Source: Aquimarina sp. Aq107
GTDB lineage: Bacteria > Bacteroidota > Bacteroidia > Flavobacteriales > Flavobacteriaceae
Direction of reading: 5' to 3'
NCBI RefSeq assembly: GCF_943733665.1
Contig: NZ_OX030782.1
Coordinates: 330,001-394,000, forward strand
DNA: 64,000 nt
Part shown: piece by piece, positions 5,908 to 20,558 of the stretch
How the letters are laid out: each line of letters starts with the position of its first letter
Position numbering within the stretch: position 1 is the stretch's first letter
Translations under genes and position numbers: made by a program
The notes under the pieces: model-generated
Told to the model about the DNA's origin: nothing
Seen by the model: only the letters and a program-made list of their open reading frames with translations
Database searches by the model: none

Positions 5908-5985
5908 GGGCAATTAGCTCAGTTGGTTCAGAGCACCTCGTTTACACCGAGGGGGTCGGGGGTTCGAATCCCTCATTGCCCACCA
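5908..5985 (+). tRNA. tRNA-Val (anticodon TAC)
   Basis: The cloverleaf folds fully: acceptor GGGCAAT pairs over 7 bp with ATTGCCC, the D arm is GCTC/GAGC, the anticodon stem CCTCG/CGAGG encloses the loop TTTACAC with anticodon TAC, and the T arm contains TTCGAAT. The discriminator base A is followed by an encoded CCA (5983-5985). It lies between folC and a convergent minus-strand peptidase gene, with its own promoter and terminator. Confidence 0.96.
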
Positions 5986-6219: not shown

Positions 6220-8397
6220 TTATTTTAATTGATAATCTGGATGACCTGTTTGCCATAGTAAAAAAGTCATTATTTTAGATAATTCTTTATCTTTTTTATT
6301 AGCAGAAGCTTCAAACCCATGACCACCTTCAAAATCAACATCCAATAAGACTGGATTATTAGAATTGCCTTCTTCCTGTAATTTTGCAGCAAATTTAGCT
6401 GGTTGCCATGGGGGTACACGTGAATCATTCATGCCAGCGGTAAGATAAACTGCCGGATATTTTGTTCCTTTTTTAAGATTGTGATAGGCATCCATTTCTA
6501 ATAATGCTTGAAACTCTATAGAGTCTTTGACAGTGCCAAATTCTTTAATGTTATTTTGACCATTAGGGCCAAATTCGGAGCGTAACATATTCAACGTCCC
6601 AACTCGAATAGCGGCAGCTTTATAAAGGTCTGGGCGTTCTGTGATTGCTCTGCCGATGGTAATACCACCTGCACTAGCTCCCCAAAGTGCTGTTTTATCT
6701 TTATTTGTGTAATTATTATTAATCAGATATGTCGTGCAGGCAATCAAATCTTTCCATGAATTAGGTTTAGTAGTTTTACGCCCTCCTAAATGCCAATCAT
6801 CTCCTTTTTCTCCTCCTCCACGAACGTGAGCTGTTGCGTAGATACCACCCTCTTCTAACCAATACAATAAATAATTATATAAAAAGGGAGAGTTGGACCA
6901 TTTATACGCTCCATATGCGTTAATTAGCATTCTATTTTGACCATTTAACTTGGTTCCTTTTCTATATATAATTGATAAAGGTACCATAACTCCATCATGT
7001 GATGGAATTTCAATTTCTTCAACAATTATGTCTTTTAAAAAATCATATTGAGTAACTGGTACTAAATCTATTGATTCAAATTGCTTTGTTTCGTGATTTA
7101 GAATATACGTTTCCTTATAACTAGTCCAACCTTCTATTGTAATTCTTAGTTCAGAAAAATCGATTCCGTGTGAAGACAAATTGATATTACCAGAAGGTTT
7201 GGGAAGCTTAATTTCGGATTCTTTTGTAGTTAGATGATCTCGAAAAAATAATTTAGCTTCAACTCCATTTTTTGTTTTTACGTAATAAATTCCGTCTTTA
7301 GTTATTTCGAAATCAGATATTACAGATGAATTTTGTTCCGGAACTAATATTGTGGCATCTTCAAAATTAGGTGCGTCTAGATTAACTTTACAAATTTTGA
7401 AATTGGAGGCTCCTTTGGCAGTTCGATAATATAGATCACTACCATAGAGAAAAAACTGTTTAATTTTTTCTTGTTTTCCATAAAGCTTTTTCCAATTTAT
7501 CTTTTCTTGGGATATATTTTTTATTTCTTCGTAATAAGTATCTCTGTAAGATGATACTCCAGCAATTGAAGCAAGAACATATTTATTTTTAGGATGTGTG
7601 AAATAGATAATAGGAAAATCCTCTTGTTTGATATTAATTTTTGGGTTATTCTTTTTAGAAAATATGGTTTTAAGTTTATCTACTTTTTTATTTAAATAAT
7701 AGATTTTAGCCTCAGCTAGAAAAGAATAATCTTTGTTTTTGGTATCTGTAATTGGAGTGTAGGTGTAAATGAACCCTTCATTATTTGATAGCCATTCGAC
7801 TCCTCCTAAGGAATTGGGTAATGCATTGGGTAGCGTATCAGAAACTATTTTTTTTGTTTTTACATCCATCACAAAAAGTTGAGAAAACTCTTCGTCATTC
7901 TTAGTTATGCTTAAGACTATTTTGCTGGAATCCCAATTTGGTTGAATGTAGTTTATAGAATAAGATTCATCCGAAGAAGGTTTGAAATCTTTTGGATCAT
8001 ATAAAATTTCTTCTGATCCGTTTAAACCATTTCTCAGGTAGACTTTAGATGTTGTTTCAATTTTTGAACGTTTTAAATAAAAGTGAATATCATCTTGACT
8101 AATTTTCAATTTAGTAATAATACTTTCATTATCGTTTCTCTTTTTTTCAATGGATTTTTGAATTTTAACTATTCCTGGATTATGACCAAAAGCTTTCTCA
8201 GTTTCTGTTTTTTGGTCTTTTAACCAATTTATAGTTACTGAATCATTTAAATTCTCTAGTATTCGATATGTATCTTCAATTTTTTGGCCATAATACTCAT
8301 CTACAATATTTGAATCTTTCAAAGCTTCAGTTTTTTCTTTTTCTTTACATTGAATTGCGACTACCAGAAGTAGAAATACACTTAATTTTCTTATCAT
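6220..8397 (-). CDS. Prolyl oligopeptidase family (S9) serine peptidase, predicted lipoprotein
   Basis: I place the start at the ATG at 8397 (725 residues), because it gives a lipoprotein signal (MIRKLSVFLLLVVAIQC, lipobox cysteine at residue 17). The reading frame extends further upstream, but that extension runs across a terminator hairpin and the small gene at 8465-8617, so it is not coding. The N-terminal half is a beta-propeller-like region; the C-terminal half is an alpha/beta hydrolase. The catalytic triad is visible: Ser in WGASAGG (about residue 575), Asp in MNDSRVPPWQP (about 657), His in FEGGHGFE (about 693). It would cleave peptides after proline or related residues at the cell envelope. 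Its position right after a GG-leader precursor is notable because some class III lanthipeptide leader peptidases (FlaP, AplP) are prolyl oligopeptidases; a role here is inference. Confidence 0.9.
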   Translation of the reverse strand: MIRKLSVFLLLVVAIQCKEKEKTEALKDSNIVDEYYGQKIEDTYRILENLNDSVTINWLKDQKTETEKAFGHNPGIVKIQKSIEKKRNDNESIITKLKISQDDIHFYLKRSKIETTSKVYLRNGLNGSEEILYDPKDFKPSSDESYSINYIQPNWDSSKIVLSITKNDEEFSQLFVMDVKTKKIVSDTLPNALPNSLGGVEWLSNNEGFIYTYTPITDTKNKDYSFLAEAKIYYLNKKVDKLKTIFSKKNNPKINIKQEDFPIIYFTHPKNKYVLASIAGVSSYRDTYYEEIKNISQEKINWKKLYGKQEKIKQFFLYGSDLYYRTAKGASNFKICKVNLDAPNFEDATILVPEQNSSVISDFEITKDGIYYVKTKNGVEAKLFFRDHLTTKESEIKLPKPSGNINLSSHGIDFSELRITIEGWTSYKETYILNHETKQFESIDLVPVTQYDFLKDIIVEEIEIPSHDGVMVPLSIIYRKGTKLNGQNRMLINAYGAYKWSNSPFLYNYLLYWLEEGGIYATAHVRGGGEKGDDWHLGGRKTTKPNSWKDLIACTTYLINNNYTNKDKTALWGASAGGITIGRAITERPDLYKAAAIRVGTLNMLRSEFGPNGQNNIKEFGTVKDSIEFQALLEMDAYHNLKKGTKYPAVYLTAGMNDSRVPPWQPAKFAAKLQEEGNSNNPVLLDVDFEGGHGFEASANKKDKELSKIMTFLLWQTGHPDYQLK

Positions 8398-8409
8398 ACG
8401 CTTACTAAA

Positions 8410-8449
8410 AAAAAACCATCTGATACTTATTAAGTAATCAGATGGTTTG
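8410..8449 (-). terminator. Intrinsic terminator after the RiPP precursor gene
   Basis: On the minus strand AACCATCTGATTACTTA is followed by TAAGTATCAGATGGTT, a long near-perfect hairpin, and then a run of nine T. It sits between the stop of the small precursor gene (8465) and the start of the peptidase (8397). This arrangement would give a short abundant precursor transcript with partial read-through into the peptidase. Confidence 0.75.
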
Positions 8450-8464
8450 ATGTTGTTACCAAAA

Positions 8465-8617
8465 TTAACATAATTGCAGGGTCGCTTGAGTATTTTGACC
8501 GGAATCGTCGTCATCAAGCAGCGCAGCAAATCCTCCTTTGATTGTTCTGGAGTTATTTAATTTTGAAATTTGAAATTTTTCGAAACTTAATTTGTTTTTT
8601 TTTCTGTCTTTTTTCAT
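8465..8617 (-). CDS. RiPP precursor peptide with GG-type leader (Bacteroidota class I lanthipeptide-like)
   Basis: A 50-codon gene, ATG at 8617 and TAA at 8465. The lysine-rich start is followed by the leader pattern LSFEKFQISKLNNSRTIKGG, which is the hallmark of Bacteroidota GG-family natural-product precursors (hydrophobic positions at alternating spacing, KLN, then IKGG at residues 26-29). Cleavage after Gly29 would release a 21-residue core containing four consecutive Asp (35-38), Ser39, Thr43, Thr46 and a C-terminal Cys50, compatible with one dehydroamino-acid/thioether event. It lies between a membrane AraC-type regulator and a prolyl oligopeptidase, has a TAnnTTTG box at 8654-8661 and a strong terminator. 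No LanB, LanC or transporter gene is in the window, so any modification enzymes must act in trans. The leader match is strong; the modification type is inference. Confidence 0.78.
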   Translation of the reverse strand: MKKDRKKNKLSFEKFQISKLNNSRTIKGGFAALLDDDDSGQNTQATLQLC

Positions 8618-8653: not shown

Positions 8654-8661
8654 CAAATGTA
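8654..8661 (-). promoter_or_regulatory. -7 promoter box of the RiPP precursor gene
   Basis: On the minus strand the sequence is TACATTTG, an exact TAnnTTTG box, 36 bp before the precursor ATG. No good TTTG -33 element is found at the right distance, which fits a promoter that depends on an activator bound at the palindrome 8698-8711. Confidence 0.55.
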
Positions 8662-8697
8662 ATGGGATTTTTAACTAAATTTTAAGCCTATATGCTT

Positions 8698-8711
8698 AAA
8701 TTCATGAATTT
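8698..8711. promoter_or_regulatory. Palindromic operator, copy 1 (upstream of precursor gene)
   Basis: AAATTCATGAATTT is a perfect 14-bp dyad, two bases after the stop codon of the AraC-type regulator gene. Its centre is about 47 bp upstream of the precursor's -7 box, a typical activator position. The same core occurs twice more upstream of the regulator gene (10599-10635) and was not noticed in other intergenic gaps of the window. Confidence 0.55.
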
Positions 8712-8713
8712 CA

Positions 8714-10399
8714 TCACCTATTTTCCGCTATTTTGTTCTTTAAATTCTTTAAAAAATAAGAAGGGTAGATCCCAGTGTTTTTATGGAAAGCGGTAGTAAA
8801 AGACTGTGCTGTATTAAAGCCAAATTCTTTGGCAATGGCTTTTATAGTATAGGATCGTAATTTAGAGTCCTCGGTTAGTCTTGTTACTGCATAATCGATC
8901 CTGAGATTATTAATGTATTGAGAAAAAGAAGTCTTTTTCTTTGTATTTATTATTTTTGATAAATAACCATTATTGGTATTTAATTCTTTGGCAAGCAAAC
9001 TTAAAGTGTATTGTTTTGTTACAAATTGATTACTTCTTTCGAATTTATCAAGCTTACTTAGAATCGTATCGACTACTTCAGATGGTAAATCAATATCTTC
9101 TCTTCGACTTTTCTCTTTAGGATGCGTACTATTTTTCTTTACTGCATGTTCATTCCGGTTTTCTAATAAGATTTTAAACCGTTTTTTGTTTATTAAATTT
9201 CTTCTACCAACATAAATAATAATCGCTGACAAAATCAAAACGAATAGAACTAAAAACCAATTTATCAGTTTTTCTGTTTTTTTCTCCGTTTCAAGTTTTG
9301 TTATCAGTTTTTCTTTTTCCGAAATTAATTTTGGAGTATCATATTGTTCTGCTATCTGTTTACTTAGATTCGTAGGTCTAGTTTTAAGAATACTATCCAC
9401 GGATAGTAATTTCTTTATGATTTCTAATTGTTTTTCAGCATTGTCTTCATATTTTTTGAATAAAGCTTCATAGGCATCTCGTGCTTGAAGAATTACTTGA
9501 GGACTTTTTTTATAGGTAGAATCAACTTTATCAAGATAATATATGGACTTTGTTTTATCATTAATCGAATCATAAATACTGCTAATATGTATGTAATTCA
9601 TAGCAAGTGAAATTTTCTTGTCTTCTATTAATGAAGTCCCTTTAATCATACTGTCTAGGGCGGTTTTGTATTCCTTTTGTATCAATTTGGCACTTCCATA
9701 CGATAGTAAAAAAAGTGGATACAAATATTTATCCTCAGTATCCGAGCTTACTTGTATCCCTTTCTTGCTATAGAATTGAGCAGAATCTGCCCTTTTATTA
9801 AGTATGTAAGCATTAGAAATAGCGAATAAAGATTTTAAATACTGTTTTTTATGTTTTTCTTGATGCTCTAGTTTTTTAAAAAAAGACATATTTTCCTTAA
9901 AAATATTAAATGCTTCATTGTTTTCATGAATTTTACTTTTAAGTAATCCTATGTAATGTCTTATAATTAACTGTTTGAATTCATCTTTTTGCTCACTATA
10001 ATATTCATTCGCTTTTAGATAATTTTTTAATGCTTCGTTATATTCTACTACATAATAAAGCTGTATTCCTTTTTGTAAATAACCTTTAGCCAGATAAGCT
10101 TTGTCTTCAAGGTTTTGCGACACTTGGATGATACTATCAGAATATTTAACGGCATCCTCAGAATGACTAAATATTTCAGAAAGCGTGTAATAAGCCTCTG
10201 CAAGCTCAGCAACATTATTATTTTGTTTGACCAAATTTAGGTATTGATTCGCTAGTGATTTTTTGCGAAATTCATTGCTTTCACTCTTTATTTTATTGGA
10301 GTATAAGATTGATAATGAATCTTGTTTTTGTATTTGATTTGCGCATAAAATATTAACAAAAAATAATAGTAGTATTAAAAAAGAAAACTCATTTCTCAT
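8714..10399 (-). CDS. TPR-repeat membrane-anchored AraC-family transcriptional regulator
   Basis: A 561-residue protein. Residues 1-19 form a signal peptide (FSFLILLLFFVNILCA). Residues about 30-330 are helical TPR-type repeats rich in paired Ala/Tyr/Leu positions (for example AKGYLQKGIQLYYVVEYNEA). A coiled segment and one transmembrane helix at about 379-397 (WFLVLFVLILSAIIIYVG) follow. The C-terminal about 100 residues are an AraC-type double helix-turn-helix (YTLSLLAKELNTNNGYLSKI and IKAIAKEFGFNTAQSFTTAF). The predicted topology puts the TPR sensor outside the cytoplasm and the DNA-binding domain inside, the layout of many Bacteroidota one-protein sensors. Palindromes flanking the gene suggest it controls itself and the adjacent RiPP precursor. 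Confidence 0.88.
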   Translation of the reverse strand: MRNEFSFLILLLFFVNILCANQIQKQDSLSILYSNKIKSESNEFRKKSLANQYLNLVKQNNNVAELAEAYYTLSEIFSHSEDAVKYSDSIIQVSQNLEDKAYLAKGYLQKGIQLYYVVEYNEALKNYLKANEYYSEQKDEFKQLIIRHYIGLLKSKIHENNEAFNIFKENMSFFKKLEHQEKHKKQYLKSLFAISNAYILNKRADSAQFYSKKGIQVSSDTEDKYLYPLFLLSYGSAKLIQKEYKTALDSMIKGTSLIEDKKISLAMNYIHISSIYDSINDKTKSIYYLDKVDSTYKKSPQVILQARDAYEALFKKYEDNAEKQLEIIKKLLSVDSILKTRPTNLSKQIAEQYDTPKLISEKEKLITKLETEKKTEKLINWFLVLFVLILSAIIIYVGRRNLINKKRFKILLENRNEHAVKKNSTHPKEKSRREDIDLPSEVVDTILSKLDKFERSNQFVTKQYTLSLLAKELNTNNGYLSKIINTKKKTSFSQYINNLRIDYAVTRLTEDSKLRSYTIKAIAKEFGFNTAQSFTTAFHKNTGIYPSYFLKNLKNKIAENR

Positions 10400-11195
10400 A
10401 CATTCAATTTCGATATAAAATTTTAGGTTTAAAGGTAAAAATAGAATGGTTATTGAGAATTAAAGAAAAGTTAAATTCGTGTTTTTATCCATTTTTTAGC
10501 CTGTATACTTATTACAAAAATAATTAAAGTCTTTATTAATGTCTTTTTTTTTTGTAAAGTTTTGATATACAGGTTTTTTTAAGTTGAAAAAATGAATTGA
10601 AATTCATGAATTTCAAGCTTATATTCATGAATTTCAGTTGTATCTATTTTCATATTCCACATAATATATAGACTTTTGAATTATTAACGATTTATTAATG
10701 ATTTTAAAAAGGAATCATTTCAAATGTTTCTTGAAATTTGTTGAACAGCTAGGTTGATTTATGTTTTACATTAATAATATAAATTAACACTTATGATCGG
10801 AAAATAAATTGTTTTATTTGAAATTATAAAACTTTAGAATAGGTTATCCTATTTATGAAATAATCTTTGGAAGTATTTTTTGAATAGAAAAATTATATAA
10901 TCCGAAGATTATAATATAACAAATTTTGATATAAAATAGCTCAACTTTAAAAGGATACAGCATTACAAATTCTGTTGAAAGTTAAGTTGTGAAGAAGACA
11001 TAGTTTTTCGAAATAATCCCATTTTTTGGAAAAGTCACGCATATGTCACTTTTGGAAATTTCTAGAAATAGAGATTTTGGGAGTGCAGGAGGCGAAGCCA
11101 TATCAAAACCTCATTTTAATATACATTTTTTTAAGTTTTACATTCTTGTTGACACAGGAGTGTATGTAAATGTCTCACATATAAATCATTAACTC
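10400..11195. other. 796-bp divergent intergenic region
   Basis: The region separates the minus-strand AraC-type regulator from the plus-strand NusG paralogue. It holds two palindromic operator copies (10599-10635). A TAnnTTTG-like box on the minus strand (CAAAAATA at 10515-10522 on the plus strand, TATTTTTG as transcribed) could be the regulator's -7 element. I found no convincing promoter for the NusG paralogue. Near its right end is a locally G-rich block (11079-11099) with a small GGC-GAA-GCC hairpin. A 49-codon open frame (11043-11192) ends three bases before the NusG-paralogue start; it matches nothing I recognise. Confidence 0.5.
10599..10635. promoter_or_regulatory. Two palindromic operator copies in phase (copies 2 and 3)
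   Basis: GAAATTCATGAATTTC (10599-10614) is a perfect 16-bp dyad and TATTCATGAATTTC (10622-10635) a second copy. Their centres are 21 bp apart, two helical turns, so two dimers would bind on one face. The core equals that of copy 1 at 8698-8711. They lie about 200 bp upstream of the AraC-type regulator start and about 560 bp upstream of the NusG paralogue; autoregulation is the simplest reading. Confidence 0.55.
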
Positions 11196-11723
11196 ATGTC
11201 AAAAACTTTTAAAACCGGTTGGTATGTCCTGTATGTTAAATCATGTCAGGAGAAAAAAGTTCACGATCTTTTACAAGAAGATCAATTAGAATCTTTTTTA
11301 CCCGTAGTGAAAACTATTAGAAAATGGAGTGATAGAAAAAAGATTGCTTTTAAACCTCTTTTTACTTCTTATGTATTTGTAAAGATTAATTCACCTTTAG
11401 ATTTTCATAAAGCACTTTCCGTAAATGGCGCTTGTGCTTATATCCGATTTGGGAGCGAATATGCAATAGTAAAGGATCAAGAGATTTTAAACATTAAATT
11501 ATTTTTAGGATCTAACGAAATTTCTAATGTAGAAACTTCTAATAGAACATTTAAAATAGGTGAAATCAAGAAAATTAACTACGGATCACTAAGTGGCCTG
11601 GAGTGTGAGATCTTAAAAGTTAACAACACCAATAAACTTATCGTAAGGATAGATTCATTGCAACAGAGTATTATAGCTACAATTCCTTCTTGCCATATTG
11701 TAGATATTCATAAGGTAGCATAA
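11196..11723 (+). CDS. NusG paralogue, UpxY-type transcription antiterminator
   Basis: A 175-residue protein with an N-terminal NGN domain (WYVLYVKSCQEKKVHDLL, then KPLFTSYVFVKI and YIRFGSEYAIV) and a C-terminal KOW-type domain (about residues 115-150, KIGEIKKINYGSLSGLECEI). It lacks the insertions of housekeeping NusG and resembles UpxY/RfaH-type specialised factors, which board RNA polymerase at one leader and suppress pausing and termination. It lies 177 bp upstream of the first synthetase, with two hairpins between. In other phyla NusG paralogues serve long antibiotic operons (LoaP in Bacillus, TaA in Myxococcus), so antitermination of this NRPS/PKS operon is the natural inference. Confidence 0.87.
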   Translation: MSKTFKTGWYVLYVKSCQEKKVHDLLQEDQLESFLPVVKTIRKWSDRKKIAFKPLFTSYVFVKINSPLDFHKALSVNGACAYIRFGSEYAIVKDQEILNIKLFLGSNEISNVETSNRTFKIGEIKKINYGSLSGLECEILKVNNTNKLIVRIDSLQQSIIATIPSCHIVDIHKVA

Positions 11724-11780
11724 TATTAATCAAGCTATTTAAGCTACAAATCTACATACATTAAATTCCTGAAAAAAATC

Positions 11781-11823
11781 AAGTTTATATCATCTAAGTA
11801 AATTATATAGATGATATAAACTT
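11781..11823 (+). promoter_or_regulatory. Perfect 16-bp leader hairpin between NusG paralogue and NRPS1
   Basis: AAGTTTATATCATCTA (11781-11796) is exactly complementary to 11808-11823 with an 11-nt loop. No T-run follows, so it is not a standard terminator. Its place between the antiterminator gene and the first giant NRPS gene makes it a candidate recruitment or pausing element. Confidence 0.6.
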
Positions 11824-11839
11824 AGTAAAATATTATGTT

Positions 11840-11857
11840 CGATTGGGTTTCCAATTG
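11840..11857 (+). promoter_or_regulatory. Second leader hairpin before NRPS1
   Basis: ATTGG (11842-11846) pairs with CCAAT (11851-11855) around GTTT, extendable by a G-T and a C-G pair. It follows the 16-bp hairpin by 18 nt and ends about 43 nt before the NRPS1 start. Confidence 0.4.
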
Positions 11858-11900
11858 ATATGATAATAGTTTAATTTTTGGAGCGTACTAAATAATTAGA

Positions 11901-14900
11901 ATGGATATGATTCAGAAAAAAATTACAACAAAATATTGGGTTAATAAACTGGAAGGTTTTTCTTCTGACGATTTAAATACTTCTATGGAGTTAATTTCAT
12001 CTGAAGATAGTATTTCAATAAAAGCAGAGGATTTATCCTATTTTTATAAATTAACCTCAGATAATCATATTGCTGAATTTACGATTCTTTTAACCGTTTT
12101 CAATACGCTTTTACAACGTTATTTTGGGGAATGTTATATGATTTTCTCGGATGATTTGATTCCTGATGAAGATATTTCATTATTATATCGTTTTTCAGCT
12201 ATAAACAATAAAATATTTAAACAGTTTCTTCAAGAAGTTAAGGAAGAAGTTCAGGATGTATACAAGCATAAAGGTTATGATTTAGATACGTTTGAAGGAA
12301 AAGAATTTGAAAAATATACGCCATATGGATTTTCTTATAATGGAATTAAAAATAATTCTTCTTCATTTTCATTAAAAGTAACTAAGCAAGAAAATAAAGA
12401 TATTAGAATTTCTATACTTTTTTCAGAAAATTTTGTAAAGAAGGAGCTTGCAAGTCATTTCCTAAATAGATTTAGTGTTTGGGTTAAAGAATTAGAAGAA
12501 AACATAGAAAAGCAGGTTTCCCAAATCGCAATCATATCCGAAGAAGAAAAAGAAAAGCTAGTATCTGCAGTTGATACTGTAGATACTGTAGGTTCTTTGT
12601 CAGATACAATCATTTCATTATTTCAATCTCAGGTCACCAATACTCCTAATGATATTGCTCTTGAATATGAAGGAAAGGAATTCACTTATAAAGAAATTAA
12701 TGACCGATCTAATCAATTAGCTCATTATTTGGTAGAAAAAATAGGTATTTCTTCTGGTGATTTTGTTGGAGTGAAATTAGTAAGGACTGAAAAATTATTA
12801 ATTTCACTTTTGGCTGTACTTAAAACAGGAGCTACGTATGTGCCTATTGATGTAACTTATCCTGAGGAGAGAATTGCTTACATAGAAAGTGATAGTAATT
12901 GTAAATTGGTCATTGACCAGCAACAAATAAATCAGTTTGAGAAAGATCAACTTAAGTATTCAAAACAGAATATAAAAACTGATACTAAATCGAGTGATTT
13001 AGCCTATATCATTTATACTTCGGGAACTACTGGAAATCCTAAAGGTGTAATGATTACCCATCAGAATGCGGTTGCTTTGATTAATTGGGCAAAGGATGAA
13101 TTTAAAAACACTGATTTTGAGGTAGTGTATGCAGCTACATCACATTGTTTTGATCTCTCTGTTTTTGAATTCTTTTATACGTTATCAGTAGGGAAGAAAA
13201 TAAAATTATTGGATAATGCACTAGAAATAGGAGAGCATATAGAAAACGATAGCAAGGTGTTATTAAATACAGTTCCTTCCAGTATTCGAAACGTACTAGA
13301 AGAAGCTTATGATTTATCAAATGTATGTGCTGTGAACTTGGCAGGAGAACCTTTTCCTGTAGATATAGCTCAAAAACTTTTAACTACAAAAGCAGAGATT
13401 AGAAATCTTTATGGTCCATCAGAGGACACTACTTATAGTACATGTTATAAATTATTAAATAAAGAAGTATATAAATCAATTCCTATAGGGAAACCTATTA
13501 CGAATACTCAAGTCTATATTTTAGATGAAAACTTACAGTTGTTACCTTCAGGCGCAATAGGGAAATTATATGTTTCTGGAGTTGGAGTAACGAAAGGGTA
13601 TTTGAATCGTCCAGAATTAACCGCTGAAAAGTTTATAGAAAATCCATATTGTTCTGGAGAACGAATTTACGATACTGGAGATTTGGCAAGATGGCTTCCA
13701 GATGGAAATATTGAATTTTTAGGACGAAAAGATCATCAGGTAAAATTAAGAGGATATCGTATAGAATTAGGCGAGATAGAAAATTCGATATCAGATTTTT
13801 CTGAAGATGTTTTGCAAGCTGTTGTAGCGGTTAAAAAAGTTAAGGAAAAAGAAATTTTAGTTGGTTACTATGTTGAGAATAATGTTATTGATAAATCTGA
13901 ATTAAGAGATTATTTAAGCATCCGTTTACCATCCTACATGATTCCGACTTATTTTATTGCAATAGATTTCGTTCCTCTTACCCCAAATGGAAAAGTAAAT
14001 AAAAAAGCACTTTCCGAAATTACTACAGTAGATATCGTTAAAAAGGATTATGTAGCACCTAGAGATAAAACAGAGCAAGATTTAGTGAATATATGGGAAG
14101 AGGTGTTAGGAATAAAAAACATTGGTGTTAAGGACAATTTTTTTGAGTTGGGAGGTCATAGTCTTATGATTTCACAAATTATAAATAAGGCTTATAAGGC
14201 TATGGGAGCCAATATCCCTTTTAAGTCTTTTTACACAAATCCAACAATCGAAGATATAAGGAAAACCTTAAAAAATGATACGTTTATCTCAATAGAAACG
14301 GCTCGCATTTCGGATTCTTATCCGATTACATCATCACAACATCGTTTATGGTTGCTAAGTCAAATAGAGGAGAGTACACAAGCATATCATATTAGAGGAG
14401 CTGTATCTTTAGAAGGAAATGTGGATATCGAAAAATTTGAGGAGGCATTTCATTATGTAGTTAGCCGTCATGAAATATTACGTACATATTTTGATAATAA
14501 TGAGGAGGGTATTCTAAGACAGTACGTATTATCAAAAGCGGATTTTGATTTTGAATTAATAGTAAAGGATTTTTCTAAATCGGATGTACCTTATGAAAAA
14601 GTTGCGAATTATATAAAAGAACAAAAAGGTAAAGGATATGATTTGTCTAAAGCTCCTTTATTTGATGCATCATTATTAAAAATTAATGATGACAACTTTG
14701 TGTTTTTCCTATCAATGCATCATATTATTAGTGATGGTTGGTCATTAGAGATTTTAACTTCGGAGATTGTAGAAAGCTATAAACAACTACAATCAGAAAA
14801 TTCTTTAAAGCTACCGGATTTACCAATACAGTTTAAAGATTATGCAGTTTGGTTGGAAGAAACAAATACCGAAAGTGCATTAAAGAAATCAAAAGAATAT

Positions 14901-17900
14901 TGGTTAAATGTTTTTCAAGGAGAATTACCAGTGCTGGATTTACCAACTTATAAAAATCGTCCACTTGTAAAAACATATACAGGTAAGGAGGTAAATTATA
15001 ATTTTTCAAAAGAGATTTTATCTAATCTGAAGGTATTTTCACAGAAACATCAAGTTACCTTATTTATGACTTTGATGTCTGGAATTAAAACCTTGCTTTC
15101 AAAATATAGTAATCAGAAGGATATCATCATAGGTACACCAATCGCAGGAAGAGAACATCCTGATCTTGAACCACAAATAGGTCTGTATTTAAATACATTA
15201 GCAATAAGAACCAAGTTAAATAGAGAGGATAGTTTTTTAGATATACTTCAAAAAGAAAAACAACAATTATTAGGAGCGTATTCACATCAAAAATATCCTT
15301 TCGATAAACTAGTAGAAGAACTTGGAGTAGCAAGAGATCCTTCCAGATCACCATTATTTGATGTAATGGTTATATTACAAAATCAAAAACAATTATCGGA
15401 TTTCCAAAATAGAGAAGACCTTCAGGAATTAGTGGTAAGTCCATTTAACATAACGCGTGAGACTTCTCAGTTTGATCTTTCTTTTGCATTTATAGAGAAA
15501 GAAGATTTGTCACTTCATATAACGTATAATACAGATATTTATGAAGAGTCTTTTGTAATAGAAATCTTTTCTCATTTGGAAAATTTATTTGAACAAGTAT
15601 TAGTTTCTGATCATATTAGGCTAGAAGATATAGATGTACTAACAAAGTTAGAAAAGCATAAAATATTAGTAGATTTTAACAATACTAAAGTAACTTACCC
15701 AAAGGATAAGACTACTGTAGATCTATTTAATGATCAAGTTAAAAAAACACCTGATCAAGTAGCTTTAATTTTTGAAGAAAAAGAGGTTACATATGAGGAG
15801 CTTGATAAGTTATCTAGTCAATTAGCTAATTATCTAATAGTTAATTACAAAATAGATGTCGAGGACTTGATAGCAGTCAAATTAGATAGAAGCGAATGGC
15901 TTATAATTTCTTTGCTGGCTGTATTAAAAACCGGAGGAGCTTATGTGTCAATTGATCCTACTAGTGATGCTTACGAACGTTCAGCATATATCGAAAATGA
16001 TAGTAATTGTAAAGCTGTAATTAATAATGAATTACTAGATCATTTTAAATCTCAGCAACGCAATTATGAAGAGAGATTACCAGAAGTACCTTTGAAACCG
16101 GAGCATCTTATGTACGTAATTTATACTTCAGGTTCGACTGGTAGACCAAAAGGAGTAATGGTTGAGCATAAAAGTTTAGTAAATTATATAAAAAATCAAT
16201 CTTTAGAATTTGATTTTGATAGTACAGAACGTGTTTTATTATTTTCTAATCCAACATTTGATGCATCCGTAGAACAATTGTTTTTGACCTTATTGAATGG
16301 CGCATCATTAATCATAATATCAAAGGAGTATATCATTGATCCTTCAAGGTTTGTAAGAGCCTTAAAAGAATATGATATAACACATTTTCATTCTACACCA
16401 ACTTATTTACAACATTTAAATGATCTTAAATCTTGTGAAAATATAAGAAGAATAGTCTCTGGTGGTGAAGCATGCTCAAGAGATCTAATTATGAAAATGA
16501 GTAGTGTTTCAGATTTTTATAACAAGTATGGACCTACAGAAACAACAATTAGTTCTACAATTTGTAAGATTAATAAAAATCAATTTAAAGGAAACATCGT
16601 ATCTATTGGAAGTCCAATAGCAAATACTCAAATATATGTATTATCAGAAGGTCTTGGATTGTTACCTGTTGGAGTAGTAGGAGAAATATGCATTTCAGGA
16701 GAAGGACTATCAAGAGGATATTTAAATCAACCAGAGTTGACATCTACAAAGTTTGTGGAAAACCCTTATTTAGCAGGGGGAAAAATATATAAAACAGGTG
16801 ATTTAGGTCGTTGGTTGCCAGATGGAACAATAGAATTCATCGGAAGAAAAGATGACCAAGTTAAAATTAGAGGGTATCGTATAGAGTTAGGAGAGATTGA
16901 GAATGTTATGTTATCTCAAAATTTTATAAATCAGTGTTCTGTTGTAACACAGAAAGTTGAAGGTGAAGAGGTAATTGTAGCTTATTTGGTAGCCGAAAAA
17001 CCGTTGGATAAAAAAGATTTACGTTTATCTCTAAGTAAAGAATTACCTGATTATATGTTACCGAGTTATTATGTAGAGATAGATGCTATTCCATTGACAC
17101 CAAACGGTAAAGTAGATAAAAAAGCATTACCTCCAGTAGGGAATCAGGATGTAGCCCTTCAAGAATATGTAGCTCCTACCAATGATTTACAAGTAAAGTT
17201 AGTGTCTATTTGGGAAAATGTGTTAGGCGTAGAAGGTATTGGTATCACTGATAACTTCTTTGAATTGGGAGGGCATAGCTTAAAAATAACGCTGTTGGTT
17301 AATAAAATCAAACAACATTTAGATTTAGAAATATCCGTAAGAGACATGTTTCTAAATCCTACAATTGAAGGAGTAGTTTCCAAATTAGAAGCGAGTATTT
17401 ACCATAGTATTCCAAAAGCATCTCAGAAAGAAAGTTATAGTTTAACATCTTCTCAGAGACGTATATGGGTTATGAGTCAATTTGAGGAAGGAAATGTAGC
17501 ATATAACATACCTAGTGCATTTAAACTAAAAGGTAGATTTCATCCAGATAAGTTATCTCAGGCTTTTACTAAGATAGTTGATAGGCATGAAGTACTACGT
17601 ACCGTTTTCAGGGGAAATGATCAAGAAGAGGTAAGACAGCATATTTTGGATGCTAACTCAATGGATATAACATTAGAATTTGTGGATATAAGTTCAGAAT
17701 CAGATTCTTCTGCACTATTAGAAGATTTAGTTGTTTCAAATCAAAACCATGTTTTTGATTTATATAATGGTCCATTATTCAAAGGAATGGTTATCAAGTT
17801 AACTCCAGAGAATCATGTACTGCTGCTAAATATGCATCATATTATTGGAGATGGTTGGTCGATGGAGATATTGAGCAAAGAATTTATAACAGTCTATAAC

Positions 17901-20558
17901 AGCTTAGTTACCAGTCAAGAAGTAGATCTTTGCGAATTATCTATACAATATAAAGACTATGCTGAATGGCAAATAAGTAAAGAACAACTTCAACAATTAG
18001 ATAAAGAAAAAGAATATTGGCATAAGAAATTATCTGGTAATTTACCTGTACTAGAGCTTCCAGTAAATAAGATGAGGCCGAAAATGAAGACATATAATGG
18101 AGATTCATTTTCTTATAGTTTTTCTAAGGATTTAAGTACATCTATACAATTGTTTAGTAAGAAACGTGGAGCAAGTTTATTTATGACTTTGATGTCAGGA
18201 ATTAACGGCTTGTTATCACGATATGTTAATACAGGTGACATTATTATTGGTACACCAGTAGCTGGACGAAATCATTTAGATTTAGAACAACAAATAGGAC
18301 TGTATTTGAATACTTTAGCTATTCGTACTCAATTTGATAAGAATGCAAGCTTTGAAGATTTGTTGTCAATTCAAAAATCTACACTATTAGATGCCTATTC
18401 CAATCAAAAATACCCGTTCGATACTTTGGTTGATGAATTGGCTACTAATAGAGATACCGGAAGATCAGCACTATTTGATGTTATGGTGGTCTTACAAAAT
18501 CAACATAATTTACTAGGTTCTTCAGATCTAGGATTAGAAGAATTATCATTAGAGCCTTATTTAGATGTTCAAAGGAAAGTAACTCCGTTTGATCTTAGTT
18601 TCATTTTCTCCGAGCAAGAAGGGAAAATTTCTTTACATCTGGAATATAATACTGATATTTATGATGCTGTGTTTATTGAAAAACTTGTATGTCATTTAGA
18701 AAGTTTCTTAGAAAATTCTATTGATGATCCAAGTCTTAGCATTACAGATATTAATTTCTTGAAAACTCAAGAAGAACATCAGTTGTTACATGAATTCAAC
18801 AATACAGATATTATATATCCAAAGGGTAAGACAGTTGTAGATATATTTATTGATCAAGCCATCAAAACTCCAAATTCAACTGCTATCTTTTTCGAAGGAA
18901 AAAAAATAACATATAAAGAATTAGATGAATTGTCAAATGAATTGGGAAATTATTTGAAATCAAATTATACTCTTGATATTGAAGACCTTATCGGTGTAAA
19001 ATTAGAAAGGAGTGATTCGTTGATAATTAGTTTACTAGCAATTTTAAAATTAGGATGTGCTTATGTTCCTATTGATCCAAATTATCCAGAACAACGAATA
19101 TCGTTTGTTGAAAAAGATAGCAATTGTAAGTTAACTATAGACATCGATTTACTAGAATTATTTAGATCTTCAGAACCTCAATCAAAAGAGCTTCCAATAG
19201 TATCAATAAAACCAACAAATTTAGCATACGTAATTTATACATCAGGTTCCACAGGGAAGCCTAAAGGAGTTATGATAGAACATGGTAGTTTATTAAATCT
19301 GTGTTTCTGGCATATGGATGCCTATGACTTAAAGATCTCAAGTAGAGGAACTTTATTTGCAGGATCTGGATTTGACGCTTCTGTTTGGGAGATTTATCCA
19401 TATTTGTTATCAGGTGGTTCATTATATCCTATTGCTAGTAAAGGAGTTAGGTATGATGTTAACTTGCTTAAAGATTTTTTAGACCAACATGAAATCACAC
19501 ATTCCTATTTGCCAACAAGGATTTGCGAACAGTTAGTATTAGAAAGTTTGGAACTGGAACGTACAAAAATTTTGACTGGAGGTGAAGCACTTAAGTTACC
19601 TGAGGGAATTAAAAACTTAAAGATCTATAATAATTACGGGCCTTCAGAAAATACTGTTGTTACTACTAGTTTTAATTTAAAAGATCATTTAGAAGATGCA
19701 ATACCTATTGGTCGTCCTATTTCAAATACCAAGGTGTATATTCTATCCGATTCATTGAGATTACAACCAGTTGGAGTAGTTGGAGAGTTATGTGTTTCTG
19801 GAGTAGGTTTGTCTAGAGGTTATCTTAATCACAAGGAGATGACATCCGAAAAATTTATAAGTCATCCTTTTATGGTTGATGGACGATTATATAAGACAGG
19901 AGACTTAGCTCGTTGGTTGCCTAATGGTACTATTGAGTATATCGGTAGAAAAGATGATCAGATAAAAATAAGAGGTTATCGAATAGAACTGGGAGAAATT
20001 GAAAATGTAATAGCTTCTCGATCTGGAATAGAACAAGCTTTAGTACAAGTAGATGTGCAAAACGGAGATCAAGTACTTGTGGCTTATATTGTATCTAAAG
20101 AAGCATTTGATAAGCAATCACTACGAGCCTCTTTAAGTCAGGAACTACCAGATTATATGGTACCTAGTTATTATGTGAATTTAGATGTTATTCCTTTGAC
20201 CGCAAATGGAAAAGTAGATAAACACGCACTGCCATCAGTTGGAATAGAAGATCTTATTCGACAAGAATATGTAGCTCCTACTAATGAGATAGAAGAACAT
20301 TTAGTATCTATATGGGAGGATGTTTTAGGAATAGAAAAAATTGGAATTACTGATAACTTTTTTGAATTAGGTGGGAATAGCCTAAAAGCAACAATTCTGG
20401 TTAATAGAATAAATAAAGCTTTTGACAAAAGGTTCTCGATTCAAGATCTATACGATACTCAGGAAATAGTTGGGGTATCAACAAAGTTAAAATTCATTGT
20501 TTTTCAAAACCAATTAAAATCCGATAACATTGACGATTTTGATGAAGTAATAATATAA
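11901..20558 (+). CDS. NRPS1: half-C-A(Ala)-T-C-A-T-C-A(Leu)-T
   Basis: A 2885-residue synthetase with three modules. Residues 1-230 are only the second half of a condensation domain (starting at KYWVNKLEG, with FTILLTVFNTLL but no HHxxxDG), so this looks like the loading protein. Then A1 (about 240-705, YTSGTTGNPKG near 370), T1 (LGGHS near 751), C (HHIISDG near 940), A2 (YTSGSTGRPKG near 1404), T2 (LGGHS near 1783), C (HHIIGDG near 1978), A3 (YTSGSTGKPKG near 2443), T3 (LGGNS near 2818). Pocket codes read by eye: A1 DLFNNALTY (the microcystin Ala code), A2 DAEHVGKIS (unassigned), A3 DAWSLGNVV (Leu type). The tail ends DFDEVII, a likely docking motif for the TubC domain of the next protein. 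Confidence 0.93.
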   Translation: MDMIQKKITTKYWVNKLEGFSSDDLNTSMELISSEDSISIKAEDLSYFYKLTSDNHIAEFTILLTVFNTLLQRYFGECYMIFSDDLIPDEDISLLYRFSAINNKIFKQFLQEVKEEVQDVYKHKGYDLDTFEGKEFEKYTPYGFSYNGIKNNSSSFSLKVTKQENKDIRISILFSENFVKKELASHFLNRFSVWVKELEENIEKQVSQIAIISEEEKEKLVSAVDTVDTVGSLSDTIISLFQSQVTNTPNDIALEYEGKEFTYKEINDRSNQLAHYLVEKIGISSGDFVGVKLVRTEKLLISLLAVLKTGATYVPIDVTYPEERIAYIESDSNCKLVIDQQQINQFEKDQLKYSKQNIKTDTKSSDLAYIIYTSGTTGNPKGVMITHQNAVALINWAKDEFKNTDFEVVYAATSHCFDLSVFEFFYTLSVGKKIKLLDNALEIGEHIENDSKVLLNTVPSSIRNVLEEAYDLSNVCAVNLAGEPFPVDIAQKLLTTKAEIRNLYGPSEDTTYSTCYKLLNKEVYKSIPIGKPITNTQVYILDENLQLLPSGAIGKLYVSGVGVTKGYLNRPELTAEKFIENPYCSGERIYDTGDLARWLPDGNIEFLGRKDHQVKLRGYRIELGEIENSISDFSEDVLQAVVAVKKVKEKEILVGYYVENNVIDKSELRDYLSIRLPSYMIPTYFIAIDFVPLTPNGKVNKKALSEITTVDIVKKDYVAPRDKTEQDLVNIWEEVLGIKNIGVKDNFFELGGHSLMISQIINKAYKAMGANIPFKSFYTNPTIEDIRKTLKNDTFISIETARISDSYPITSSQHRLWLLSQIEESTQAYHIRGAVSLEGNVDIEKFEEAFHYVVSRHEILRTYFDNNEEGILRQYVLSKADFDFELIVKDFSKSDVPYEKVANYIKEQKGKGYDLSKAPLFDASLLKINDDNFVFFLSMHHIISDGWSLEILTSEIVESYKQLQSENSLKLPDLPIQFKDYAVWLEETNTESALKKSKEYWLNVFQGELPVLDLPTYKNRPLVKTYTGKEVNYNFSKEILSNLKVFSQKHQVTLFMTLMSGIKTLLSKYSNQKDIIIGTPIAGREHPDLEPQIGLYLNTLAIRTKLNREDSFLDILQKEKQQLLGAYSHQKYPFDKLVEELGVARDPSRSPLFDVMVILQNQKQLSDFQNREDLQELVVSPFNITRETSQFDLSFAFIEKEDLSLHITYNTDIYEESFVIEIFSHLENLFEQVLVSDHIRLEDIDVLTKLEKHKILVDFNNTKVTYPKDKTTVDLFNDQVKKTPDQVALIFEEKEVTYEELDKLSSQLANYLIVNYKIDVEDLIAVKLDRSEWLIISLLAVLKTGGAYVSIDPTSDAYERSAYIENDSNCKAVINNELLDHFKSQQRNYEERLPEVPLKPEHLMYVIYTSGSTGRPKGVMVEHKSLVNYIKNQSLEFDFDSTERVLLFSNPTFDASVEQLFLTLLNGASLIIISKEYIIDPSRFVRALKEYDITHFHSTPTYLQHLNDLKSCENIRRIVSGGEACSRDLIMKMSSVSDFYNKYGPTETTISSTICKINKNQFKGNIVSIGSPIANTQIYVLSEGLGLLPVGVVGEICISGEGLSRGYLNQPELTSTKFVENPYLAGGKIYKTGDLGRWLPDGTIEFIGRKDDQVKIRGYRIELGEIENVMLSQNFINQCSVVTQKVEGEEVIVAYLVAEKPLDKKDLRLSLSKELPDYMLPSYYVEIDAIPLTPNGKVDKKALPPVGNQDVALQEYVAPTNDLQVKLVSIWENVLGVEGIGITDNFFELGGHSLKITLLVNKIKQHLDLEISVRDMFLNPTIEGVVSKLEASIYHSIPKASQKESYSLTSSQRRIWVMSQFEEGNVAYNIPSAFKLKGRFHPDKLSQAFTKIVDRHEVLRTVFRGNDQEEVRQHILDANSMDITLEFVDISSESDSSALLEDLVVSNQNHVFDLYNGPLFKGMVIKLTPENHVLLLNMHHIIGDGWSMEILSKEFITVYNSLVTSQEVDLCELSIQYKDYAEWQISKEQLQQLDKEKEYWHKKLSGNLPVLELPVNKMRPKMKTYNGDSFSYSFSKDLSTSIQLFSKKRGASLFMTLMSGINGLLSRYVNTGDIIIGTPVAGRNHLDLEQQIGLYLNTLAIRTQFDKNASFEDLLSIQKSTLLDAYSNQKYPFDTLVDELATNRDTGRSALFDVMVVLQNQHNLLGSSDLGLEELSLEPYLDVQRKVTPFDLSFIFSEQEGKISLHLEYNTDIYDAVFIEKLVCHLESFLENSIDDPSLSITDINFLKTQEEHQLLHEFNNTDIIYPKGKTVVDIFIDQAIKTPNSTAIFFEGKKITYKELDELSNELGNYLKSNYTLDIEDLIGVKLERSDSLIISLLAILKLGCAYVPIDPNYPEQRISFVEKDSNCKLTIDIDLLELFRSSEPQSKELPIVSIKPTNLAYVIYTSGSTGKPKGVMIEHGSLLNLCFWHMDAYDLKISSRGTLFAGSGFDASVWEIYPYLLSGGSLYPIASKGVRYDVNLLKDFLDQHEITHSYLPTRICEQLVLESLELERTKILTGGEALKLPEGIKNLKIYNNYGPSENTVVTTSFNLKDHLEDAIPIGRPISNTKVYILSDSLRLQPVGVVGELCVSGVGLSRGYLNHKEMTSEKFISHPFMVDGRLYKTGDLARWLPNGTIEYIGRKDDQIKIRGYRIELGEIENVIASRSGIEQALVQVDVQNGDQVLVAYIVSKEAFDKQSLRASLSQELPDYMVPSYYVNLDVIPLTANGKVDKHALPSVGIEDLIRQEYVAPTNEIEEHLVSIWEDVLGIEKIGITDNFFELGGNSLKATILVNRINKAFDKRFSIQDLYDTQEIVGVSTKLKFIVFQNQLKSDNIDDFDEVII

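Follow-up and report, generated by a model that had tools for sequence, protein, structure and literature searches.

As judged from gene order in related genomes, a 50-codon gene of Aquimarina sp. Aq107 occupies the middle position in a recurring cassette that consists of a membrane regulator (REG), a small peptide with a GG leader and a prolyl oligopeptidase (POP). The reading that we favour, with a probability of about 0.6, holds that this precursor is the product gene of a REG-controlled cassette, and that the peptide is matured in trans by LanB and LanC, exported, processed by the peptidase and sensed by REG. REG would be a one-component membrane regulator that binds a palindrome located 5′ of both the REG gene and the peptide promoter and activates the peptide gene, while a terminator after the peptide would hold the peptidase lower. 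The leader (LxFxKx5L, GG) would be recognised by a split LanB (and LanC) that is encoded once elsewhere; LanB would dehydrate the core, LanC may cyclise it (one Cys, three Ser/Thr), and a C39-ABC/HlyD system, also encoded elsewhere, would cut after the GG and export the peptide. An extracytoplasmic peptidase would then trim or destroy the product, and the matured peptide would probably be sensed by the TPR region of REG, which amounts to autoinduction.

The precursor gene and its leader

The window is the whole 64,000-nucleotide stretch of contig NZ_OX030782.1 that was analysed; its relevant features are collected in Table 1. L and G numbers denote the loci and the genomes compared, respectively. 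The peptide is encoded on the minus strand by a 153-nt open reading frame, and its translation comprises a 29-residue leader ending in GG (MKKDRKKNKLSFEKFQISKLNNSRTIKGG) and a 21-residue core (FAALLDDDDSGQNTQATLQLC). A preliminary description of this DNA had proposed a GG-leader gene of 50 codons, which was found in this frame, and its account of the core is exact in the length of 21 residues, the DDDD run, the single Ser, the two Thr and the Cys at the C-terminus. It was also right in that the gene overlaps a false N-terminal extension of the peptidase: the longer peptidase frame, 6220-8529, starts with TTG, the likelier start is the ATG at 8397, and the relative in L063 begins at the corresponding place.

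Table 1. Features of the cassette in the window
Feature	Position	Strand	Remarks
Prolyl oligopeptidase-family protein (S9), lipoprotein-like N-terminus (by eye)	6220..8397	-	Pfam Peptidase_S9, S9_N
Intrinsic terminator-like hairpin between peptide and peptidase	8416..8445	-	folding energy vs shuffles
GG-leader precursor peptide gene, 50 aa	8465..8617	-	leader 8531-8617, core 8468-8530, stop 8465-8467
Bacteroidota-type -7 box TACATTTG (TAnnTTTG), predicted peptide promoter	8654..8661	-	
Putative REG operator GAAATTCATGAATTTA 5′ of peptide	8697..8712	-	
REG: predicted signal peptide, periplasmic TPR-like region, TM helix (aa ~375-403), cytoplasmic HTH_18 (AraC-type)	8714..10399	-	
TAnnTTTG box TATTTTTG 5′ of REG	10515..10522	-	
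Putative REG operator 5′ of REG, perfect palindrome GAAATTCATGAATTTC	10599..10614	.	one of three exact genome sites
Weaker second palindrome copy 5′ of REG	10620..10635	+	2 mismatches

On comparison with A. litoralis, the frame is a real gene. Over 49 codons the two peptides differ at 40 nucleotides and 14 amino acids, and the nucleotide differences are distributed over the codon positions as 12/4/24. Uniform random substitution leads to an expected 26 amino acid changes, and none of 5000 simulations came as low as 14; the coding constraint that the preliminary description had made the refuting test is thus apparent. Within the core, codons 1-15 (a span chosen post hoc, with the alignment already seen) carry 11 nucleotide changes and a single amino acid change, which 0 of 5000 simulations equalled, whereas the last six residues differ, with one codon gap and with the exception of the final Cys. 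The core is therefore conserved in its first 15 residues, DDDD included; in the leader, nine of 29 residues differ. A spurious frame in the intergenic region between REG and the peptidase is an exceedingly improbable explanation: the frame is indeed short, overlaps another open frame and scores under a curated leader cut-off, but the codon-position pattern and the simulations speak against chance, the slot is likewise occupied in dozens of loci, and this reading was rejected on the conservation in A. litoralis. A leader HMM applied to the 360 small ORFs of the window gave the peptide 55.1 bits and the runner-up 5.3; the window peptide is among the 41 training rows of this HMM, of which the test for coding constraint is independent.

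The synonymous divergence from A. litoralis is uneven: dS is estimated at 2.2 in the peptide, which has only 28 synonymous sites, at 0.16 in REG and at 0.52 in the peptidase (dN 0.047), and in the ~96 nt 5′ of the peptide ATG all 95 of 95 aligned bases are identical, with one internal 1-base gap. Because the substitution rates of peptide, REG, peptidase and upstream region differ so much, recombination around the peptide is likely.

The Asp4 core had been called unusual, yet acidic runs recur in peptidase-linked cassettes. Asp4 as a unique oddity was accordingly discarded: runs of at least three acidic residues are found in 6/18 POP-linked and 3/68 other cores (p=0.002), and the mean acidic fraction is 0.177 in POP-linked cores versus 0.113 (p=7e-4, related loci kept in). 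The core boundary in these counts follows a crude rule, the first GG or AG past residue 15, which yields a core of at least eight residues for 86 of 88 peptides; nine of the 86 are free of Cys.

Neither of the two model searches suggested in the preliminary description returned a match above threshold. NCBIfam NF038153, the class I lanthipeptide leader model, gave the window peptide 13.5 bits under a cut-off of 22, and TIGR04149 (rSAM-modified RiPP) was not listed for it at E<=10, with HMMER filters that drop most matches above 0.1. In 43 precursors taken from the set of 88, and at a lax E<=1, NF038153 matched 22 and TIGR04149 seven; NF038180 (leader_pinensin) matched only one of the 43, at E 0.3, which sets window-type precursors apart from pinensins. 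The window leader motif, LSFEKFQISKL, has LxLxKx5L in a relaxed form only, with F replacing the second L, and the GG is present; the A. litoralis orthologue has the exact motif (LNLKKLKISKL), as do 55 of the 88 precursors in its strict and 75 in its relaxed form. According to Walker et al. 2020 (PMC7268733), LxLxKx5L leaders, many with a GG end, are found in various Bacteroidetes class I LanA. By its motif, the window leader belongs with those of Bacteroidota class I lanthipeptides; the earlier claim of a Bacteroidota natural-product leader stands in the form of LxLxKx5L...GG, although NF038153 stays under its cut-off.

A recurring cassette and its regulatory sequences

Homologues between the same two neighbours had been proposed as a check and were found as recurring REG-leader-POP loci. 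Of 29 loci selected by leader, one per Aquimarina genome and each the top-scoring leader match there, 26 have a REG homologue upstream on the same strand (the exceptions are L040, L045 and L053). Starting from REG, 56 of 79 loci (the kept part of 132 relatives, several from one genome) have a same-strand leader that scores more than 12 bits downstream of REG, with a distance of -7 to 377 bp between REG and the first leader. Elsewhere among the 7455 small ORFs of this set, only four leader matches exceed 12 bits, and a further REG copy precedes three of the four (L119, L142, L162). The 41 training leaders of the HMM overlap the 79 loci (e.g. L025, L084), so that HMM scores in these loci are not independent; adjacency is. 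The HMM misses at 23/79 REG loci, three of which (L125, L139, L147) hold a divergent GG peptide in the slot that was recognised by eye, afterwards; one clade on the REG tree, made up of Lutibacter and related REG (L109, L111, L112, L116, L118, L152), has no leader-HMM match downstream. Arrays of three to four leader peptides behind one REG occur at L054, L092, L098, L099, L101, L102, L104, L105, L110, L113 and L121; the array cores differ from one another, but a motif resembling [SI]TKTxP or STKTxxxG recurs close to their C-termini.

REG is a protein of 561 aa encoded 5′ of the peptide on the same strand, and is 97% identical to its A. litoralis CCMR20 counterpart (L084). Pfam detects HTH_18 (2.4e-14) and a weak TPR_12 (0.0086); in the REG relative from the LanB cluster of the same genome, TPR_12 is strong (7e-17). 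The topology is predicted from hydropathy, and both hydrophobic segments are found in 58 of 62 aligned REG proteins. The Aq107 genome encodes eight full-length REG copies, five with adjoining leaders, and gives ten REG matches at E<=1e-10 overall; a search of viral contigs found no REG relatives. Rap, PlcR and Rgg are RRNPP receptors, and ComC/ComAB is a GG-pheromone system. A REG profile run against the PDB matches RapJ (4gyo, E 9e-10), but the eukaryotic TPR proteins TONSOKU and GPSM2 score better, and the Rap match is therefore only suggestive. REG departs from the RRNPP arrangement of a cytoplasmic sensor and a re-imported peptide, since the signal peptide and TM helix place its TPR region outside by prediction. 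Covariation between core and REG was considered as proof of a ligand and dropped: a Mantel-type test (1629/1711 pairs, 59/61 cassettes) gave a weak r of 0.110 for the sensor (p 0.001) versus 0.139 for the HTH, and a sensor value that is not above that of the HTH does not discriminate.

The preliminary description had credited the peptide with its own -7 box, operator and terminator, and candidates for all three are present. The -7 box TACATTTG belongs to a type found in 21/57 cassettes versus 6.2 expected (mononucleotide shuffle), with 20 of the 21 boxes 28-46 nt before the ATG. The hairpin (stems 8437-8445/8416-8424, followed by a T run) has a folding energy of -17.5 kcal/mol (z -5.9, matched by 0/200 shuffles), and a similar hairpin is seen by eye in A. 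litoralis. A simple sigma-70/terminator scan listed neither the -7 box nor the hairpin, both of which are probably excluded by its consensus and its 3-8 loop limit.

The palindrome GAAATTCATGAATTT[A/C] 5′ of the peptide has an exact copy 5′ of REG. Its three matches at <=2 mismatches in the window are equalled by 7/100 shuffles and hence not significant in the window alone; a count over the whole genome tests the palindrome more stringently. In the 5.5 Mb of the genome, the pattern GAAATTYATRAATTTC is found exactly at three sites, which all belong to two REG-peptide loci, that of the window and L054, the latter without POP. At <=1 mismatch there are ten genome sites, four of them at these two loci, versus one for a reversed control pattern; the remaining six look like chance occurrences, and four of the six lie inside ORFs. 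Since the pattern was derived from the REG-peptide sites, the presence of these sites carries no independent weight; what does is how rare they are elsewhere and that they are placed in pairs. Other REG branches carry other common palindromes (e.g. GTTTCCGGAAAC), and in a rank test on 57 of 61 cassettes, in which related loci have the motif in common, the own REG-upstream region ranked ahead of those of other cassettes, with a median rank fraction of 0.196, a place in the top 5% in 13/57 and the first place in five. The operator centre lies ~45 bp 5′ of the -7 box, a position that would suit an activator. In A. litoralis (L061/L084), REG and peptide are separated by a ~280-bp insert relative to the window that contains, by eye, a decayed second REG 3′ end and a duplicate operator-promoter region, and is perhaps the scar of a cassette duplication or exchange.

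POP carries the sequence stretches GASAGG, DSRVP and GGHG. It lies 3′ of the peptide in many cassettes, a second case in the same genome being L055. On the REG tree, POP linkage requires at least 13 changes; it comes and goes, which makes POP optional. Core proline, considered as the mark of a POP substrate, is seen by eye in LanB-free cores and is absent from the window core; it was given no weight.

Several further observations concern the surroundings. Adjoining the cassette, on the plus strand (window 11196-20558), are a NusG/UpxY-like protein and then a 2885-aa NRPS, both identified by eye, and at ~5910-5985 the window has a sequence that resembles a tRNA gene. Elsewhere in the genome (L082, near 1851634), a GG-type small peptide lies directly 5′ of a different HTH-like protein of 343 aa, possibly another peptide-regulator pair.

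Maturation with and without LanB

Near the peptide, no LanB or LanC was seen within the window. A whole-genome search, which the preliminary description had recommended, found both enzymes elsewhere, at a single locus at 4.55 Mb (PF04738, PF14028, PF05147) that is not adjacent to the peptide. The N and C parts of this LanB are on separate proteins (L056), and the locus also holds LanC, two leaders and its own REG. A C39-ABC exporter with an HlyD partner is encoded in the genome as well, away from the peptide, and eight leaders of the window type are found at five REG loci. The orphan setting reported earlier is thus correct as far as the neighbourhood goes, but it is not unusual, given that 52 Aquimarina genomes have up to 16 leader matches and 0-3 LanB matches per genome.

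The distribution of leaders follows that of LanB. Leaders at E<=0.1 are found in 35/41 LanB-positive and 0/11 LanB-negative Aquimarina genomes (p=2e-7, relatedness and genome size uncorrected), for which reason it is likely that the window peptide is modified in trans by the single LanB/LanC locus. The corresponding counts are 28/41 versus 0/11 at E<=0.01 and 38/41 versus 5/11 at E<=1, and among genomes that are at least 90% complete, strong leaders occur in 35/39 LanB-positive and 0/7 LanB-negative ones. LanB, REG, leader and POP stand side by side at L086, L114, L132 (Tenacibaculum skagerrakense) and L155 (A. longa). As separate observations, a LanC-like protein is encoded at 3375825-3376937 of the Aq107 genome (L006/L057) with no LanB match nearby, and L129 has, 6-7 kb 5′ of REG and in the opposite orientation, a tandem set of four GG peptides of a different type (MKKLxLNK...SCxNGSRKxKxCC) near LanB- and LanC-like ORFs.

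Another explanation is an antimicrobial lanthipeptide beside a REG that answers an unrelated envelope cue. This reading, which we regard as distinctly unlikely, draws on relatives located near LanB, on the 22 of 43 precursors matched by NF038153 at E<=1, and on a leader motif reported for Bacteroidetes class I LanA (PMC7268733). It sits poorly with the lack of an obvious immunity gene between REG and the peptidase (by eye), with the retention of the first 15 core residues despite high silent divergence, and with POP-linked cores that, by eye, have no conserved Ser/Thr-Cys pattern.

LanB is present in 17 of 19 genomes behind 20 chosen loci. The two without a LanB match are those of L139 (Hyunsoonleella pacifica) and L147 (an uncultured member of the Flavobacteriaceae), the completeness of both being unstated, and their slot peptides have Cys-free cores and no LxLxKx5L; the genome of the third divergent slot peptide, L125, has LanB. 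A 3-row profile of these slot peptides, run over 397 family genomes, gave a match at E<=0.1 in 43 of them and ranked the window peptide fourth-best (E 1e-4 per one genome). REG adjoins the peptide in eight of 17 loci examined (L173, L174, L176, which is the window locus, L178, L179, L183, L185 and L186), and L174, L178 and L179 are new REG-peptide-POP cassettes in G214, G391 and G180. These three genomes are 99-100% complete and have no LanB match; their cores, FADKGPIRRDKLKRPKHGF, TNGPIDRDKIKIPIRR and GDGPIDRDKIRTSERR, lack Cys and contain no more than two Ser/Thr. Among the ten genomes checked overall, LanB is present in G155 and G293 (LanB-type leaders beside REG), in G419 (intermediate leader) and in G438 and G208, while G336 has none and G345 a 35-residue remnant.

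In L205 and L206 (G391, G180), REG, peptide, POP, C39-ABC and an HlyD-like protein follow in this order on the same strand, with no recognised modification gene between cassette and exporter; at L204, a C39/HlyD exporter pair lies next door and is convergent. These assignments come from Pfam for the L204 HlyD and five L205 proteins (peptide and flanks excluded), and from BLAST and position for L206. The REGs of the LanB-less cassettes group with that of L125 in a single clade of weak support (SH-aLRT 80, long branch L204 included), so that the LanB-less cassettes count as about one evolutionary event. As LanB-less cassettes with Cys-free cores exist in five Flavobacteriaceae, the basic function of the cassette need not be a lanthionine product, and 'lanthipeptide' may describe maturation in the window lineage, not the basic function of the module.

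These cassettes are an argument for a somewhat unlikely alternative, in which the peptide is an essentially unmodified or incidentally modified pheromone that is exported and cut by C39-ABC and sensed by the TPR region of REG, with the peptidase maturing or degrading the signal. REG-peptide-POP without a LanB match and with Cys-free cores in all five genomes (L139, L147, G214, G391, G180), the continuation of L205 and L206 into C39-ABC and HlyD, the rank of the window peptide in the slot-peptide profile and the match of the REG profile to Rap peptide receptors all point in this direction. The window lineage, however, has LanB, a LanB-type leader and a C-terminal Cys; LanB also occurs with L125, one of the three profile rows; the LanB-less REGs share one weak clade with L125; the completeness of the L139 and L147 genomes is unstated; REG is beside the peptide in only eight of 17 profile loci; covariation is not sensor-specific; and TONSOKU and GPSM2 outscore Rap.

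We retain maturation by LanB/LanC in trans followed by export, processing and sensing as the preferred reading, against which count the NF038153 miss, a core with a single Cys and three Ser/Thr, the unconserved last six core residues, the 9/86 Cys-free cores, the lack of correction of the LanB-leader correlation for relatedness and genome size and its counts at E<=1 (38/41 versus 5/11), the 23/79 REG loci without a leader-HMM match, the weak core-REG covariation, the optional POP and the window-only palindrome matches (7/100 shuffles). A broader proposal, possible but tentative, is that REG and the GG-leader peptide form a ligand-receptor pair, in which a one-component TPR-AraC receptor of the Bacteroidota that spans the membrane would recognise an exported peptide, C39-ABC/HlyD would be the exporter and POP a signal-processing enzyme, and LanB/LanC would modify the signal in trans in part of the family, so that several peptide circuits would run in parallel in one genome through a single modification enzyme (eight leaders and five REG loci in Aq107).

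Known systems and wider implications

Pinensins are lanthipeptides of Chitinophaga, from the same phylum, and as at L056, their LanB has its N and C parts on separate proteins, a split mentioned in PMC7268733. With the Bacteroidetes class I lanthipeptides of that paper and of NF038153, the Aq107 system shares the leader motif, the GG end and a genome that encodes a split LanB, LanC and a C39 exporter; it differs in that LanB/LanC are not adjacent, in the REG-POP cassette, in an acidic core that has a single Cys and three Ser/Thr, and in the HMM score under the cut-off. In its leader type and its LanB in trans, it is an extension of these known class I lanthipeptides. LanPB are the prolyl oligopeptidases of class III lanthipeptides (PMC7268733) and are alike in that an S9 peptidase gene accompanies a lanthipeptide-type precursor, but here the leader is of class I type, the host is a member of the Bacteroidota, the POP is apparently extracytoplasmic, and the arrangement also occurs in LanB-less genomes.

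The resemblance to RRNPP and ComC/ComAB lies in a TPR sensor with an output that adjoins a small GG-leader peptide, and in the C39 and HlyD genes of L204-L206. Unlike RRNPP receptors, REG is a predicted membrane-spanning protein whose TPR region lies outside and whose AraC HTH lies inside, and its ligand is putative. In the open-licence literature that was searched, no description was found of the REG-peptide-peptidase module, its operator or its LanB-free form. The Bacteroidota are not known to us to have a well-established quorum-sensing system based on peptides.

The operator, the cassette and its LanB-free variant offer direct tests either way. If the peptide is a lanthipeptide, it shows how genome-dispersed precursors share one LanB, and neighbourhood mining would undercount such precursors. 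If it is the ligand of REG, the cassette would represent a novel class of signalling between cells, and this in a phylum abundant in oceans and guts.
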